Of a stretch of DNA of 64,000 nucleotides, positions 11,775 through 61,999 are shown one piece after another. Numbering within the stretch: the first letter of the stretch is position 1; every line of letters starts with the position of its first letter. Source of the stretch: a virus; the IMG/VR virus record IMGVR_UViG_3300029922_000001, positions 294,512 to 358,511 of that record; one strand, given 5' to 3'. The notes beneath the pieces are model-generated. The model was given only the letters and a program-made list of their open reading frames with translations. It was not told the DNA's origin and made no database searches. The position numbers and the translations under genes are program-made.

Positions 11775-12803
11775 ATGATGAAACTAGATAGACAAGCCTT
11801 TAATGAAGCGGTAAGGAAGCGTGACAAAGATCAATGTGTCATGTGTAAATCACCAGCAAGCGAAGTTCATCACATTATCGAACGCAAACTTTTTGTGGAT
11901 GGTGGCTATGTTATGGATAATGGTGCCACATTATGTGGTGACTGCCATCTGAAAGCTGAACAAACAATTATCAGTGCGAAACAAATTAGACTGGCTGCTG
12001 GTATTACGAATGTGGTGCTTCCTGAAGGTGTTGGTGACGATACAGATTTTGATAAATGGCTCAATCCAGTATTAACAAACAATAGAAGATTAAAAGGTCC
12101 ACTGTTTGAGACTGAACAAGTTCAAAAGGTTTTAAAGGATGCAAATCTATTGGATCTTTTTGATGATTATCTCAAATATCCAAAAACACCGCATTTGTGG
12201 TATTCTAATACTTCTAGTGATGATAAATATATTGAATCAATGAGAATTATTGAAAATGAAGAAATTGTAGTTACTGAAAAAATGGACGGAGAATCACTAA
12301 CTTGGTATTCAGATGGCTATTATCATGCACGTAGTTTAAGCGGTCGGGGAGGGGAAGATAGAAGCCTTGCCGCTGCGATAGCGAATCAAACACAGTACGA
12401 TTTACCCAAAGGTTGGCGTGTTTGCGCTGAAAACGTTGTGCGACAACATTCTATTGTTTATAAAAATTTAAACAGCTTTATATATGTTTATTCTATTTGG
12501 GATGAAAATAATAATGCTCTTTCTTGGAAAGAAACAGAAGAATGGTGTGAACTATTAGGTCTAACTACTGTTCCTGTTTTATATAAAGGTAAATATAATA
12601 AAGAATTCATTCATTCATTATACTCTCCAGTAAAAGAAAATGGAGATGAAATGGAAGGTTATGTTATTCGCGTGGCTAGATCATTTCATTTTAGTGAGTT
12701 TAGTCAGTGTATCGTAAAATGGGTTAGAAAAAATCATGTTAATAAAGACAGTAAACACTGGAGATATTCGGCAATTAAGAATAATTCATTAAGTTTTATT
12801 TAA
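11775..12803 (+). CDS. HNH nuclease-RNA ligase fusion
   Basis: Residues 12-65 form an HNH/zinc module: CVMC (21-24), VHHIIE (31-36), NGATLCGDCH (49-58). From about 100 the protein is an RNA ligase of the nucleotidyltransferase superfamily. The adenylated lysine lies in TEKMDGES (169 is K of KMDG), motif III-like RVCAENVV follows, motif IV is EGYVIRV and motif V KWVRKNH. This ligase family seals breaks in RNA such as tRNA cut by host defence nucleases. The HNH domain keeps its histidines and so may be an active nuclease. Fusion of cutting and sealing in one chain is unusual. Confidence 0.8.
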   Translation: MMKLDRQAFNEAVRKRDKDQCVMCKSPASEVHHIIERKLFVDGGYVMDNGATLCGDCHLKAEQTIISAKQIRLAAGITNVVLPEGVGDDTDFDKWLNPVLTNNRRLKGPLFETEQVQKVLKDANLLDLFDDYLKYPKTPHLWYSNTSSDDKYIESMRIIENEEIVVTEKMDGESLTWYSDGYYHARSLSGRGGEDRSLAAAIANQTQYDLPKGWRVCAENVVRQHSIVYKNLNSFIYVYSIWDENNNALSWKETEEWCELLGLTTVPVLYKGKYNKEFIHSLYSPVKENGDEMEGYVIRVARSFHFSEFSQCIVKWVRKNHVNKDSKHWRYSAIKNNSLSFI

Positions 12804-12914
12804 TAATTTCCAATCTTTTTCCCAGATGGTTATCAATTTATAACCCATATTTTTAATTTTTTGTTCTCTTGATAATGTTCTTTTATAAACATCTTCAAAT
12901 GTACCTTTTAACAT
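12789..12914 (-). pseudogene. Remnant of a Vsr-like/homing nuclease C-terminus
   Basis: On the minus strand 41 codons read TFEDVYKRTLSREQKIKNMG and then YKLITIWEKDW. This is the C-terminal end (T-x-x-R-E, G-Y-x-x-x-x-I-W-E-x-x-W) of a nuclease family with a restriction-endonuclease-like fold common in large viruses. An in-frame TAA immediately upstream removes the catalytic N-terminus, so it is a fragment. It overlaps the last 15 bases of the ligase gene. Confidence 0.55.
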
Positions 12915-13017
12915 CGGATGTTTTTATGAATTATTGTCAATCACAAAACACCGATAATGATCCTAATGATAAGCTTAAAATTCTTGCGTGGTGGACTTTT
13001 TAAGGTATACTATAGTT

Positions 13018-16229: not shown

Positions 16230-16251
16230 TCTAAGGTATACTGTTTTCATT

Positions 16252-17388
16252 ATGAAACGAATCGGAGAATTTCCACAAAAAGAAGAAGTGCTTAAGCTAT
16301 TGAGGACGACTGAAAAATCGCTTGTTTGTAAACTTGGTGTCGATCCTACAGCAACTGAGGTTACTTTGGGGTGGGCTGTCGTTTTACGCGAACTAAAGCG
16401 TTTACAAGTGTGTGGTCACAGTATCACATTAATTATTGGCGATTTTACGGCTGGCATTGGTGATCCTACAGGTAAGAGCAAAACTCGTGTACCATTGACA
16501 CACCAACAAATTAATGATAATGTCAATGCGTTATTACCACAGATTTTTACTATTTTAGATCCTACAAAGACTTCTGTTAAGTTTAATTCTGATTGGTTGG
16601 CTTGTAAGTCATTTGCTGAAATGATGCGTATTATGGCAAATATTACTGTTCAACAAGCTTTGAATCGTAATGACTTCCAGAATCGTTTAGAAGACAATGC
16701 ACCCGTAGGATTACATGAAATTATGTACCCTGTTTGTCAGGCTTTGGATTCGGTACATATTTGGGCAGATATTGAAATTGGTGGAGAAGATCAATTATTT
16801 AATGTTATGATGGGTAGAGATTTAATGAAGCAAATGGGTATGAAACCTCAGTTGCCGTTACTTTTCCCATTGCTTTTAGGTGTTGACGGTACGCATAAAA
16901 TGAGCCAAAGTCTTGGTAATTTTATTAGTATTCGTGATACTCCTGAAGATATGTTTGGTAAAACGATGTCGATTCCAGATAGTGCTATGCCTAACTGGTT
17001 CCATTTGCTTACTGATATTTCTTTTGAGTCTGCACAGAAGGAAAATCCTAGAGATACTAAATTAATTTTGGCTGAAGAGATTGTACGTCAATTCCACGGA
17101 TTTGAAGCAGCAACTTTGGCAAAAATTAATTTCATCAATAGGTTTACTCATAAGATTGTAATGCCTACTGAAATTCTGGGTTTTTCTAGAGAGGATGCAA
17201 ATGAATCTTGGATGACAATTCTTGAAGAAGCTTTACCAGGAGAAAGCAAGAATAACCTTAAAAGATTGGTTCAACATAAGGGAGTGAGGTTGAACGGTAC
17301 ACCAATTGAGAGTGTGAAGGATTTCCCAGAGGAAGGGATTTTGACAATTGGGAAACTAAGAGCGTGGAAAGTAGAGAGTTACGATTAA
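16252..17388 (+). CDS. tyrS: Divergent tyrosyl-tRNA synthetase
   Basis: The start at 16252 follows GGTATACT by nine bases. Class I synthetase features: GVDPTATEVTLGW (29-41), LIIGDFTAGIGDPTGKSKTR, the tyrosine-pocket region, GGEDQLFNVMMGRDL, HKMSQSLGN (KMSKS loop, 216-220) and a C-terminal S4-like domain (LVQHKGVRLNG). The HIGH motif is TLGW at 38-41, so both histidines that normally act in adenylate formation are changed. The neighbouring DPTA threonine is kept. It could be a weak or retuned enzyme. Whether it charges the CUA tRNA at 59091 is open: bacterial TyrRS prefers discriminator A, that tRNA has G. Confidence 0.9.
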   Translation: MKRIGEFPQKEEVLKLLRTTEKSLVCKLGVDPTATEVTLGWAVVLRELKRLQVCGHSITLIIGDFTAGIGDPTGKSKTRVPLTHQQINDNVNALLPQIFTILDPTKTSVKFNSDWLACKSFAEMMRIMANITVQQALNRNDFQNRLEDNAPVGLHEIMYPVCQALDSVHIWADIEIGGEDQLFNVMMGRDLMKQMGMKPQLPLLFPLLLGVDGTHKMSQSLGNFISIRDTPEDMFGKTMSIPDSAMPNWFHLLTDISFESAQKENPRDTKLILAEEIVRQFHGFEAATLAKINFINRFTHKIVMPTEILGFSREDANESWMTILEEALPGESKNNLKRLVQHKGVRLNGTPIESVKDFPEEGILTIGKLRAWKVESYD

Positions 17389-22241: not shown

Positions 22242-22247
22242 TATAAT
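22242..22247 (+). promoter_or_regulatory. -10 element of the 22.3-kb RNA
   Basis: TATAAT preceded by GATGGG, without a good -35 at 17 bases. The first hairpin of the RNA begins 14 bases downstream. No ORF follows for 500 bases, so it drives a non-coding transcript. Confidence 0.6.
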
Positions 22248-22407
22248 ATATTTGCGGTTTAGAGTTCTAGTGAACTCACAAGTTTCATAAGCTTGTCCAG
22301 AATAGTGCGATTCTATTAACACGCACCCACGAGACTTGCTCTGAGAAAACCTGGTTAAAATTCGGTTTTCAGTTAGAAAATCTTTAAAGAATAGGACTCA
22401 GAGATTG

Positions 22408-22664
22408 CGAGAATTTTATTTAGCAGTAATCAGGCTTAGTGTTGTTGAATCCTGAACAACATGAAAAGAATAAAAGATCGAATAAAGATACTCGTAAGAG
22501 TTGAGGGTTTCTAGCTTCCCCCAAAAAGTCTAGAGGACGAGAATTTATTCAGCAGTAGTTAAGCTAGTTTTGAGCGAATGGATCAAAATGAAAAGAATAA
22601 ACGATCATTAAGATACTTGCAAGAGTTGAGGGTTTTCTGGCTTTTCCCGCATAAAAGTTAAGGG
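22408..22664 (+). repeat. Two tandem RNA repeat units (130 and 127 bp)
   Basis: Unit 1 is 22408-22537, unit 2 is 22538-22664; both begin CGAGAATTT and end GGA, and a third CGAGA starts at 22665. Stems covary: GTTGTT/AACAAC in unit 1 corresponds to TTTTGA/TCAAAA in unit 2, both followed by the identical ATGAAAAGAATAAA. A later stem (TCTAGCTT/AAGTCTAGA against TGGCTTTT/AAAAGTTA) has a C-rich loop in both. Compensatory change in paired positions supports a selected RNA fold. Confidence 0.75.
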
Positions 22665-22705
22665 ACGAGAGTTTTGTGTTTGTGTTTGTATTTATATTGA
22701 ATTGA

Positions 22706-59090: not shown

Positions 59091-59161
59091 GTCTTAGAAG
59101 CATTTTGGTGATGCAAGGGACTCTAAATCCCTATAACGGAGTTCGAATCTCCGCTAAGACG
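59091..59161 (+). tRNA. Amber-suppressor tRNA, anticodon CUA
   Basis: Full cloverleaf: acceptor GTCTTAG/CTAAGAC (7 bp), D stem GCAT/ATGC with a GG-containing loop, anticodon stem AGGGA/TCCCT with loop CTCTAAA (anticodon CTA at 59123-59125), 4-base variable loop, T stem CGGAG/CTCCG with loop TTCGAAT, discriminator G, no encoded CCA. The CUA anticodon reads UAG. G73 and the short variable loop do not fit tRNA-Tyr, -Leu or -Ser; Gln is the likeliest charge but is not proven. Positions 8/14 and 15/48 are A-T and T-A, swapped from the usual T-A and G-C tertiary pairs. Confidence 0.9.
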
Positions 59162-59171
59162 CGAGAAAAAT

Positions 59172-59339
59172 ATGAAAAAACTCACAAAAAAAGAAAATGC
59201 TATTTTTGATGCAGCATGGGATGAAGGCTATGAAGCCTATCATAAAGCTGTGTTACGTGAAAATAATCCTCATATTGTTTTAGTGGCAAATGATGGTTGG
59301 GATGAAGGTTGGGAAATTGCATGGGAAGATGATCAATAA
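59172..59339 (+). CDS. Small acidic protein, 55 aa
   Basis: Begins ten bases after the tRNA and is probably on the same transcript; GCGAGAAAAAT separates them. It has two copies of a W-D-E-G-x-E motif (AAWDEGYEAYHKA and GWDEGWEIAWEDD). Function unknown, but linkage to the suppressor tRNA is notable. Confidence 0.6.
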   Translation: MKKLTKKENAIFDAAWDEGYEAYHKAVLRENNPHIVLVANDGWDEGWEIAWEDDQ

Positions 59340-59356
59340 GGTGTATAATAACGATA

Positions 59357-59584
59357 ATGAAGAAAATGAAGAAAATTCAAGCTAAATATGTTACCGTGTG
59401 GGATAGTGGACTAAGGATTTCTGCAAACTGTGAAATTGATATTTCAGTAAGACCAGTGCGCTTAATGAGCGTAGAATCAGTTTATAATCCAGATATTCAA
59501 GCTGGTAATATTATTGAAGAATATATTACACACCACGAATATGATCCAGAATATGTTCCAGTATATAGGGAATGGGAAGTTTAA
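59357..59584 (+). CDS. Hypothetical protein, 75 aa
   Basis: TATAAT ends seven bases before the ATG. Basic N-terminus (MKKMKKIQAKYVTVW) and beta-rich body. Its TAA is inside the palindrome at 59574-59591. No family recognised. Confidence 0.6.
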   Translation: MKKMKKIQAKYVTVWDSGLRISANCEIDISVRPVRLMSVESVYNPDIQAGNIIEEYITHHEYDPEYVPVYREWEV

Positions 59585-59599
59585 ACTTCCCCAACGAGA
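59574..59599 (+). other. Perfect palindromic hairpin followed by CGAGA
   Basis: GGGAAGTTTAAACTTCCC (59574-59591) is an 18-base perfect palindrome spanning a stop codon. CAA and then CGAGA (59595-59599) follow. The same hairpin-CGAGA order fills the non-coding regions and follows the tRNA. No T-run is present, so it is not an ordinary terminator. Confidence 0.6.
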
Positions 59600-59857: not shown

Positions 59858-60478
59858 ATGCTATATACATTTGATAAAGAATACACATTCTCCATTACAG
59901 ACGCTGAAATCAAGCGTTGTGAAGAATTCGCAGATGCTTCTACAAACGACTATTGGAAGCGCAACCAAACTGATTCAGATCGAATCAAACAACAGATTGT
60001 TTTCGGAAAACTAGGAGAGCTAGTTGCCGCTAAGTTCCTTGTACGACATTTGAAACAACCTGTTATGGAACCAGACTTCCGCATTTACACTAGAGATACC
60101 AAAAGTTGGGATGCGGACTTCCCCTATAAGTCATTAGGACTTGGAAATAAGAATTTCCATGTTAAGGCTTATGCTCCAAGTGATAAACCAGAATCATGGG
60201 CATTTCAATTTAAGAACAAGAGTGGCAACGGTGGAACCGATAAGCTATTTGAGAACTTCCCAGAACATAAGAAGGATTGTGTTATCTGTGTTTTGGTTGA
60301 TGTAGATAATAAAAAGGGCTACATCAGAGTATTGGCTAATTGGGGAGACTTGCATTATCTTCTACGTGATCCAATATCTTATCAATTGAGAGGATTGAAG
60401 AAGTTCCTTTATTATGAGGACCTTATCAATCTCAAGAACGAAGAAAAAGATAGTGAAAAATCTGATTCAGAAGCTTGA
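59858..60478 (+). CDS. PD-(D/E)XK-type endonuclease-like protein, 206 aa
   Basis: VFGKLGELVAAKFLV gives the leading Glu helix, MEPDFRIYTRDTKSWDADF the D and D-A-D region and FHVKAY the x-V-K strand of restriction-endonuclease-like folds common in phages, followed by SWAFQFKNKSG. The catalytic D...x-x-K spacing fits. It ends in an acidic tail whose stop codon lies within the TTGACA of the next RNA promoter. Likely a DNA endonuclease; target unknown. Confidence 0.65.
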   Translation: MLYTFDKEYTFSITDAEIKRCEEFADASTNDYWKRNQTDSDRIKQQIVFGKLGELVAAKFLVRHLKQPVMEPDFRIYTRDTKSWDADFPYKSLGLGNKNFHVKAYAPSDKPESWAFQFKNKSGNGGTDKLFENFPEHKKDCVICVLVDVDNKKGYIRVLANWGDLHYLLRDPISYQLRGLKKFLYYEDLINLKNEEKDSEKSDSEA

Positions 60479-60503
60479 CAAAGACTAGGAAGATGGGTAT
60501 AAT
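60475..60503 (+). promoter_or_regulatory. Consensus sigma-70-type promoter of the 60.5-kb RNA
   Basis: TTGACA (60475-60480), 17-base spacer, TATAAT (60498-60503): the best promoter in the window. The -35 overlaps the upstream stop codon, as at 26219 and 45878. Confidence 0.85.
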
Positions 60504-60509
60504 GAATAC

Positions 60510-61080
60510 GTTGCAGGGTTGAGAGACTGTAGCTGGAGCCTCCTAAAAAGGTTTGGTTGGATTCCTTGTAAAAATCCAACATGAAACCGAGAGGAATGAC
60601 CCATAACTTAGCAGACCTCTTTCTAGCGGGGGTTCTCGAAAAAGCTAGAAACCGAGGGGCTGTTCGATTTCAGCGATTGTAACCTTTCTTAGTAGGATTC
60701 TCGAAAACTAAGAACCGAGAAGGTGTATTAATGGCTTCTTTCCTGGTAGAAGTTCTCGAAAAACTAGGAACCGAGAGTTGATTTTAAGTTCAATCATTGC
60801 CTTGCTTGTTGGGTTCTCGAAAAAACAAGCTCCTTCCGAGATAGATCGTCTAACGATCACGCAGAAAAATAGTGGGGTGTTCTCGGACTCCAGGTACCAA
60901 CTATGAAGTATGAAGTAAAGTAAACGAAAAATAATTGTCCCATGAGATTGGGTTGACCAACTCCGCAAGTTTAAGCGACTGATTAACTATGCGTAAAAGT
61001 AAAAAGTGCAAATATTATAAATGGCGTAAGTAGTTTATTTTGCGAATTTTCCTCAGAAATGAGGGAAAACGAGAAAATAT
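60510..61080 (+). ncRNA. Non-coding RNA with daisy-chained hairpin array
   Basis: No credible ORF. After a first hairpin (GGTTT-GG-TTGGATT/AATCCAA-CAT-GAAACC) the sequence holds four similar hairpins whose stems differ but covary: TTTCTAGC/GCTAGAAA (60620), TTCTTAGT/ACTAAGAA (60686), TTCCTGGT/ACTAGGAA (60740), GCTTGTT/AACAAGC (60804). Each loop contains TTCTCGAAA and each stem is followed by CCGAGA or CCGAGG. A fifth loop with TTCTCGG lies in GGGGT/ACTCC (60874). Each CCGAG can pair with the TTCTCG of the next hairpin. The 3' end is uncertain. Confidence 0.75.
60620..60888 (+). repeat. Hairpin repeat array, loops TTCTCG and linkers CCGAGA
   Basis: Loops at 60633, 60698, 60752, 60813 and 60879 carry TTCTCG. 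Linkers at 60587, 60652, 60715, 60771 and 60836 carry CCGAGA or CCGAGG. The first linker precedes the first loop and the last loop follows the last linker, so five linker-to-next-loop pairs form with none left over. The last loop has TTCTCGG and would pair CCGAGA over six bases. Confidence 0.7.
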
Positions 61081-61085
61081 GATGG

Positions 61086-61091
61086 TATAAT
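61086..61091 (+). promoter_or_regulatory. Internal -10 in the non-coding region
   Basis: TGGTATAAT (TATAAT 61086-61091), an extended -10 without -35. It may start a second RNA covering 61.1-62.0 kb. Confidence 0.5.
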
Positions 61092-61097
61092 AAGTTA

Positions 61098-61999
61098 TAC
61101 AAAAGAACATTGAAAATTGAATATGAGCCGCGCTCAATAAATATCGGAAAAGAACGGTAAAATTGAAGTTTAGTAAATTTAAATCCGTCACCTAATCAGG
61201 TAAAAACATGAAAGTAAATAGATAATACGGAAATCATTAACTGCTTAGTCAGTTACTATCATTAAGGGGAAAGAAAGAATAAGATAGTCCACCGACGCGA
61301 TACATATTAAAGTAGGGTACGAAATAGAAATATGAACGTATCTTGGAATTAATTTTCCAACGAGATTTGTTGAAAAACAAAATAGGGATGGGATAGACCG
61401 AATAAACGCTTTTGGAGTCTGCAACAGTAGTTGTGACGATGAATTAAGAAGTTAGAAATAATAGTTCACTGGGCACCCATGCGAATTAAGGATGTCAAGA
61501 TCGGGAAGGTGGCAAACTTCCCTTGCGAGATGTTAGAAATACTATAAAAGTACACCAACTTAGTTGTGGAAAATTAATTAATTCTAGCACTCCGAGATTT
61601 ATTAGGTGGCAAAACCGCAATATTTATAAGTTGCGTACCTAGCTGTAGGGTGATAGCCTATCCGTTTTTATAGGGTAAACATACAGTCTAATGAATCTCT
61701 AAATTGAAAACTGAATATGGAATAACACTCGCTCTAGAGCTATCGGCTTTTAAACAACCTGGTGCCAAAATAAAGTAACGGCTATAACTATATAGTTAGT
61801 TTTCGAATTATAGTGAAAGGAATTAATATTCCTAACGAGATTTATATGATCGCAGATTCCGCTTGCAAACATAGTTGGTTTCGGGAGCGACGTTAATGGG
61901 TATATCCCACGAGATTTTTACAGACTGTTTGATTGGATTATCTAACAAAACATAAAGAACATCAACACTAAACCGCAAAAGAAAGAGTCATGTACTACC
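61098..61999 (+). ncRNA. Non-coding region rich in hairpin-CGAGATTT modules
   Basis: About 900 bases without a credible ORF on either strand. Hairpins end directly in CGAGATTT or a close form: TTGGAA/TTCCAA at 61343, GGGAAG/CTTCCC at 61503, a stem before CTCCGAGATTT at 61592, AGGAAT/ATTCCT at 61818 and TGGG/CCCA at 61897; a sixth (TTTTCC/GGAAAA then CGAGAAAA) lies just upstream at 61047. I found no tRNA T arm. It may continue the RNA starting at 60510 or be separate. GOLLD- or ROOL-like RNA is possible but unproven. Confidence 0.6.

Follow-up and report, generated by a model that had tools for sequence, protein, structure and literature searches.

A tandem hairpin array in a huge phage whose linkers very probably copy the phage's RNA 3'-end motif and whose loops are antisense to it

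A noncoding region of a huge-phage genome carries a tandem array of hairpins with two constant elements: linkers of the form CCGAG(A), which we hold with high confidence to be copies of a 3'-end (trailer) motif used by RNAs throughout this phage, and a loop hexamer, UUCUCG, which is the reverse complement of CGAGAA, that is, of the trailer plus one base. Judged by sequence, this combination suggests that the target of the array RNA is the RNA-maturation signal of the phage itself. The window that we analysed is a stretch of 64,000 nt (G000:C1:294512-358511) from a 441,498-bp huge-phage virus record, and the rest of the record was searched for the array motifs beyond the window. The array lies in approximately 1.5 kb without a convincing gene, flanked by an ORF that ends at 60478 and, from 62000 onwards, by further ORFs. 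The plus strand of the array region contains no long frame, even when TAG or TGA is read as recoded, and for this reason a coding region was rejected as the identity of the array. The consensus promoter of the original prediction is present with a perfect match, placing the inferred transcription start near 60510, and the 3' end of the array RNA is likely formed by a hairpin with CGAGA behind it at 61047-61074. The features are as follows.

60475-60503, plus strand: sigma-70 consensus promoter, TTGACA-17-TATAAT, 12 of 12 positions matching
60550-60586, plus strand: leading hairpin H0, core stem GTTGGATT/AATCCAAC at 60556-60580, loop without TTCTCG; stem pair probability 0.81-1.0
60587-60592, plus strand: linker/trailer motif 0, CCGAGA, identical to the tRNA trailer motif
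60589-60621, plus strand: alternative nested helix GAGAGG (60589-60594)/CCTCTT (60616-60621), using linker 0; pair probability only 0.02
60620-60651, plus strand: hairpin 1, TTTCTAGC/GCTAGAAA, TTCTCG in the loop at 60633-60638
60652-60657, plus strand: linker/trailer motif 1, CCGAGG
60686-60714, plus strand: hairpin 2, TTCTTAGT/ACTAAGAA, TTCTCG in the loop at 60698-60703
60715-60720, plus strand: linker/trailer motif 2, CCGAGA
60717-60740, plus strand: alternative nested helix GAGAAG (60717-60722)/CTTCTT (60735-60740), using linker 2; pair probability approximately 0.43
60740-60770, plus strand: hairpin 3, TTCCTGGT/ACTAGGAA, TTCTCG in the loop at 60753-60758
60771-60776, plus strand: linker/trailer motif 3, CCGAGA
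60804-60830, plus strand: hairpin 4, GCTTGTT/AACAAGC, TTCTCG in the loop at 60814-60819; recovered by the model of units 1-3
60836-60841, plus strand: linker/trailer motif 4, CCGAGA, 5 nt 3' of the stem
60873-60892, plus strand: hairpin 5, of another type, TGGGGT/ACTCCA, TTCTCGG in the loop at 60880-60886, no CGAG directly 3'
61047-61074, plus strand: hairpin TTTTCCTCA-GAAA-TGAGGGAAA(A), then CGAGA, directly before the next TATAAT

Behind the array lies a further 0.9 kb or so of noncoding sequence (61085-61970) with a TATAAT near 61087. It is made up of segments delimited by CGAGA and holds four copies of CGAGATTT, mostly after hairpins; it probably represents one or more further structured RNAs, and it has no Rfam match.

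The hairpin array is real. The four hairpins with differing stems that had been predicted at 60620, 60686, 60740 and 60804 are present as single-hairpin units with a period of 56-65 nt, stems of 8, 8, 8 and 7 bp, and loops of 13-16 nt. Their stem changes are compensated: in units 1-3, two of seven pairs are altered on both sides, one is altered on one side and none is broken. The near-fixed loop hexamer and the CCGAGA/CCGAGG linkers are likewise borne out, with TTCTCG (first bases 60633, 60698, 60753, 60814 and 60880) and CCGAG (60587, 60652, 60715, 60771 and 60836) each occurring five times. CCGAG begins 0-5 nt after the preceding stem, and pairing within a unit would indeed be strained, as in units 1-3 a linker of 0 nt would have to bridge 8 bp. 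When a unit was defined as TCTCG inside a loop, a stem of at least 7 bp and CGAG within 10 nt, four units were found in the real sequence and none in 2000 dinucleotide shuffles. When units 1-3 were used to build a covariance model, it recovered unit 4 with an E value of 0.017 in the window and of 0.12 genome-wide, but the covariance search for which the original prediction had called found no relative outside the 441-kb record. The units are probably related by duplication.

Folding of the whole RNA gave a stability no greater than that of shuffles (z -0.07), so that the support for the array is local. In this global fold, partial pairing extends to some of the loops and the majority of the linkers. 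In the nested alternative listed above, part of the linkers pairs with the bases that immediately precede the next hairpin and the loops stay free. The two ends of the array depart somewhat from what had been described. The extra first linker exists as CCGAGA at 60587, but it follows the H0 hairpin rather than standing free. The fifth loop, said to close the array, is present as TTCTCGG, but sits in a different kind of hairpin, to which the global fold assigns a low probability owing to competition with the helix CTGGAG (60533-60538)/CTCCAG (60888-60893).

The linkers have a counterpart throughout the phage. CGAGA lies no more than 4 nt from the 3' end in 23 of the 24 tRNAs called by ARAGORN, the remaining one having CGAG, while permuted pentamers are found there 0-4 times and the shifted 5-mer ACGAG 11 times; the intron mode of ARAGORN was set aside since it made far too many false calls. 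A further tRNA, found by Rfam only, ends in CCA-CGAG. The motif follows the encoded CCA where there is one; in the other tRNAs it follows the discriminator, either directly or after a single C. Across the genome 65 of 180 copies of CGAGA (36%) are noncoding, that is, within the ORF-free 7.7% of the genome, as against 4-11% for permuted pentamers. A pattern of a T-arm followed by CGAGA has 25 matches in this phage, seven of them with the ACCGAGA form used by the array, and none in the reversed control. Six other huge phages, each encoding 28-62 tRNAs, give no match to the same pattern, and no other 5-mer comes as near to being universal behind the tRNAs of those six. Given that the T-arm pattern is absent from the other huge phages, that CGAGA is enriched in noncoding sequence and that it stands at tRNA ends, we believe that the linkers are very probably this phage-wide motif. 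The array carries the same punctuation at its five linkers, with CGAG(A) directly after a structured 3' end, and its units end in A-CC-GAGA, as do the phage tRNAs. We found no description of phage tRNA trailer motifs in the literature. Among the comparison genomes, the tRNA 3' flanks of LR745206.1 and LR756502.1 most commonly hold CAAAA/ACAAA (up to 27/53 and 18/29, respectively), which may reflect a weaker trailer preference in these two genomes.

CGAGA is also present where an isolated tRNA is immediately followed by an ORF, which ties the motif to the RNA 3' end and not to the next tRNA. Examples, one of them outside tRNAs, are given below.

59091-59166, plus strand: tRNA with anticodon CUA, then CGAGA at 59162-59166; an ORF starts at 59172
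59575-59599, plus strand: hairpin GGGAAGTTTAAACTTCCC, 3 nt, then CGAGA at 59595-59599, between two genes

Outside tRNAs, stable hairpins precede CGAGA at roughly 2-4 times the rate seen for most permuted pentamers (22/157 at score 14), and closed structured segments delimited by CGAGA occur at 22253-22329, 22335-22407 and 61531-61592 of the window and at L095:12373-12702. The last of these (G000:172373-172702) is a 330-nt structured RNA within a tRNA cluster (z -1.8), closed by a 12-bp end helix that is followed by CGAGA, and has no Rfam match. Another noncoding cluster, which has a TATAAT to itself, lies at 22242-22690 of the window; it combines tandem units some 128 nt long with closed hairpin units, and CGAGA closes each of them (22330, 22408, 22538 and 22666). 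One of its hairpins (22508-22542) resembles those of the array, with a loop that lacks TTCTCG. Avoidance of CGAGA was considered as proof of cleavage and dropped, as a third-order expectation of 146 copies stands against the 180 found and there is no depletion.

Several other observations concern the tRNAs of this phage. Two tRNAs have a CUA anticodon (window 59091-59162 and L095:12128-12200) and, going by that anticodon, may be TAG suppressors. ARAGORN missed tRNA-like genes at L087:7975-8172 and at L103:12380-12582 and 12680-12920, some with long insertions, and several of these end in T-arm, acceptor and CGAGA. The phage also encodes a tRNA-His guanylyltransferase-like protein (phrog_4717; L095:15885-16700) and a tyrosyl-tRNA synthetase-like protein (window 16246-17385). 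Separately, AGGCC, CGGCC, GGCCG and GGCCT occur zero times in the record, which suggests that GGCC sites are strongly avoided.

The loops mirror the trailer. UUCUCG is constant in all five loops while stems and flanks differ, the unrelated hairpin 5 included, and the hairpin 5 loop, UUCUCGG, matches CCGAGA. Elsewhere in noncoding sequence, TTCTCG is mostly the opposite strand of CGAGAA. Predicted loop-trailer duplexes have energies of -6.6 to -13.0 kcal/mol, compared with -2.0 +/- 1.8 for shuffled loops. We estimate from base composition that an antisense pentamer would fall in a loop by chance with a frequency of about 0.006, a figure that rises if other notable motifs are allowed. The complementarity rests on one conserved 6-mer and, with that chance and units related by duplication, its statistical weight is only moderate.

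If the loop match were a chance feature copied by duplication, the array could be a simple precursor from which stable small hairpins are released at CGAGA sites, the units being perhaps mimics of the tRNA acceptor end (7-bp stem, discriminator A, CC). The tRNA-like unit ends agree with this, as does the cluster at 22242-22690, where tandem CGAGA-ended units and a similar hairpin occur without a TTCTCG loop. However, a chance feature would hardly be expected to persist in five of five loops, including that of an unrelated hairpin, while stems and surroundings diverge, and the low chance of an antisense pentamer in a loop weighs in the same direction; we consider such a precursor distinctly unlikely.

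The original prediction gave the complementarity another meaning, namely a chain in which each loop pairs with the next linker, either within one molecule or between molecules to form multimers, producing a rigid tandem architecture. The number and order of the complementary segments do fit this, CCGAGA is the best partner of loop 5, and RNA-only cages with kissing loops are formed by the ROOL and GOLLD phage RNAs (PMC12286853). The complementarity of linker n to loop n+1 is therefore present, but that register is not singled out: each linker is about equally complementary to each loop, the motif is invariant and no loop-linker covariation is seen, so that the pairing register cannot be read from the sequence. 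Nor does the constancy of the linkers call for an explanation specific to the array, as had been supposed. Since CCGAG(A) is a general trailer motif after tRNAs and other structured RNAs, the constant linkers need no intramolecular partner. Given, in addition, that the nested alternative occupies linkers and that shuffles are equally stable, we regard a chain of this kind as quite improbable, and the original interpretation as a whole as partly supported.

Searches for relatives left the array and its trailer as features of one genome: no relative with either of them was found in IMG/VR, GTDB or the phage collection. No DNA similarity to the array was detected in phages, a pattern scan of IMG/VR for the loop-stem-linker unit returned single chance matches and no cluster, and a scan of GTDB genomes for the trailers, as a clue to the host, gave 44 scattered single hits, approximately the number expected by chance. 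The ORF upstream of the array had no relative either. A match to a known Rfam family had been named as grounds for abandoning the prediction; Rfam 15 gave none over the array at gathering or relaxed thresholds and only a 16-bit chance match downstream. Within 60510-60900 no tRNA, with its cloverleaf, T-arm and acceptor stem, was found, and neither a covariance model nor ARAGORN placed a tmRNA at the array. The downstream glycosylase, used as bait, led to LR756508, Phosso and L084, and in LR756508 a tmRNA lies near the glycosylase gene. The idea that the array is a degenerate tmRNA was rejected, as the phage has its own tmRNA and the array matches neither a tmRNA nor a tRNA. That tmRNA (L101:13574-13927; G000:293574-293927; Rfam 62.9 bits) is located just upstream of the window and has no CGAGA within 25 nt 3' of its end.

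Based on these observations, we tentatively prefer to read the array as a precursor of hairpin modules with trailer punctuation, whose loops may pair with the trailer in cis, in trans or both. On this reading, a noncoding RNA some 400 nt long, which may reach to 61069, would be transcribed from its own sigma-70 promoter and would serve as a tandem precursor of small hairpin RNAs. As its units carry (A)CCGAG(A) at their ends, the same punctuation as the phage tRNAs and other structured RNAs, it is probably channelled into the tRNA-type 3'-end processing pathway that they share, where it would be cut at CGAGA sites like pre-tRNAs. The phage proteins yielded no CCA-adding enzyme and no RNase E/G, RNase Z-type or Cas6 domain, so that cutting would fall to host enzymes or to an unrecognised phage protein. 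The most likely action of the RNA would be base pairing between loop and trailer. Pairing in cis would shield the array's own sites or time their cleavage, and in trans the RNA would act as a multi-site antisense or sponge on pre-tRNA trailers, tuning their maturation. That such pairing is functional is plausible, if somewhat short of probable. The wider proposal, that the phage possesses its own RNA 3'-end code (CGAGA) together with a dedicated multi-loop antisense RNA which coordinates RNA maturation by pairing, is on the doubtful side. To our knowledge, an RNA-guided tRNA-processing layer of that kind has not been described. Huge phages carry many tRNAs, the maturation of which is little understood. 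That nearly all tRNAs of this phage share one trailer motif, which the six other huge phages examined lack, points to a signal for maturation or punctuation that is specific to this phage, and an RNA with five antisense copies of it would open the control of phage tRNA processing by RNA guides or RNA sponges to direct test.

Decoy RNAs of the CsrB/RsmY type are tandem hairpins with one constant GGA loop and unconstrained stems that titrate their target at multiple sites. The array is likewise a series of tandem hairpins with one constant loop, a constant 3' motif and free-running stems, and its linkers copy a motif that something must recognise at tRNA ends. It could therefore titrate a host or phage protein, for example a processing nuclease, that recognises hairpin plus CGAGA, the loop being read by protein instead of paired. 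However, the array loop is UUCUCG and not GGA, which is absent from the loops as a common element (it stands before the hexamer in loop 2 and at the 3' edge of loop 5, and the others have none), and its hairpins carry the tRNA-trailer motif. As a decoy of this kind would also leave the exact antisense match of the loop to a motif of its own genome unexplained, we think it unlikely. The 3'ETS-leuZ of E. coli is an excised tRNA trailer that acts as a sponge for sRNAs. The array resembles it in the base pairing that would involve a pre-tRNA spacer or trailer, and differs in being separate and antisense to a trailer common to nearly all tRNAs. In Cas6-processed CRISPR arrays, tandem hairpins are cleaved at the 3' foot. 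Such cleavage is conceivable here too, but the stems diverge while loop and linker are fixed, there are no spacers and no Cas6 domain was found in the phage, and a CRISPR array was rejected. ROOL and GOLLD are large noncoding phage RNAs, often located near tRNA islands, that form kissing-loop cages in which one contact has been termed a daisy chain (PMC12286853). The array has no Rfam match to either and is a simple tandem of short, trailer-punctuated units. Among ROOL, GOLLD and CsrB-type RNAs, none combines an antisense array with a trailer motif found across the genome. With polycistronic phage tRNA arrays, the array shares units with short spacers and the 3' punctuation of this phage's tRNAs, whereas its units are single hairpins instead of cloverleaves.
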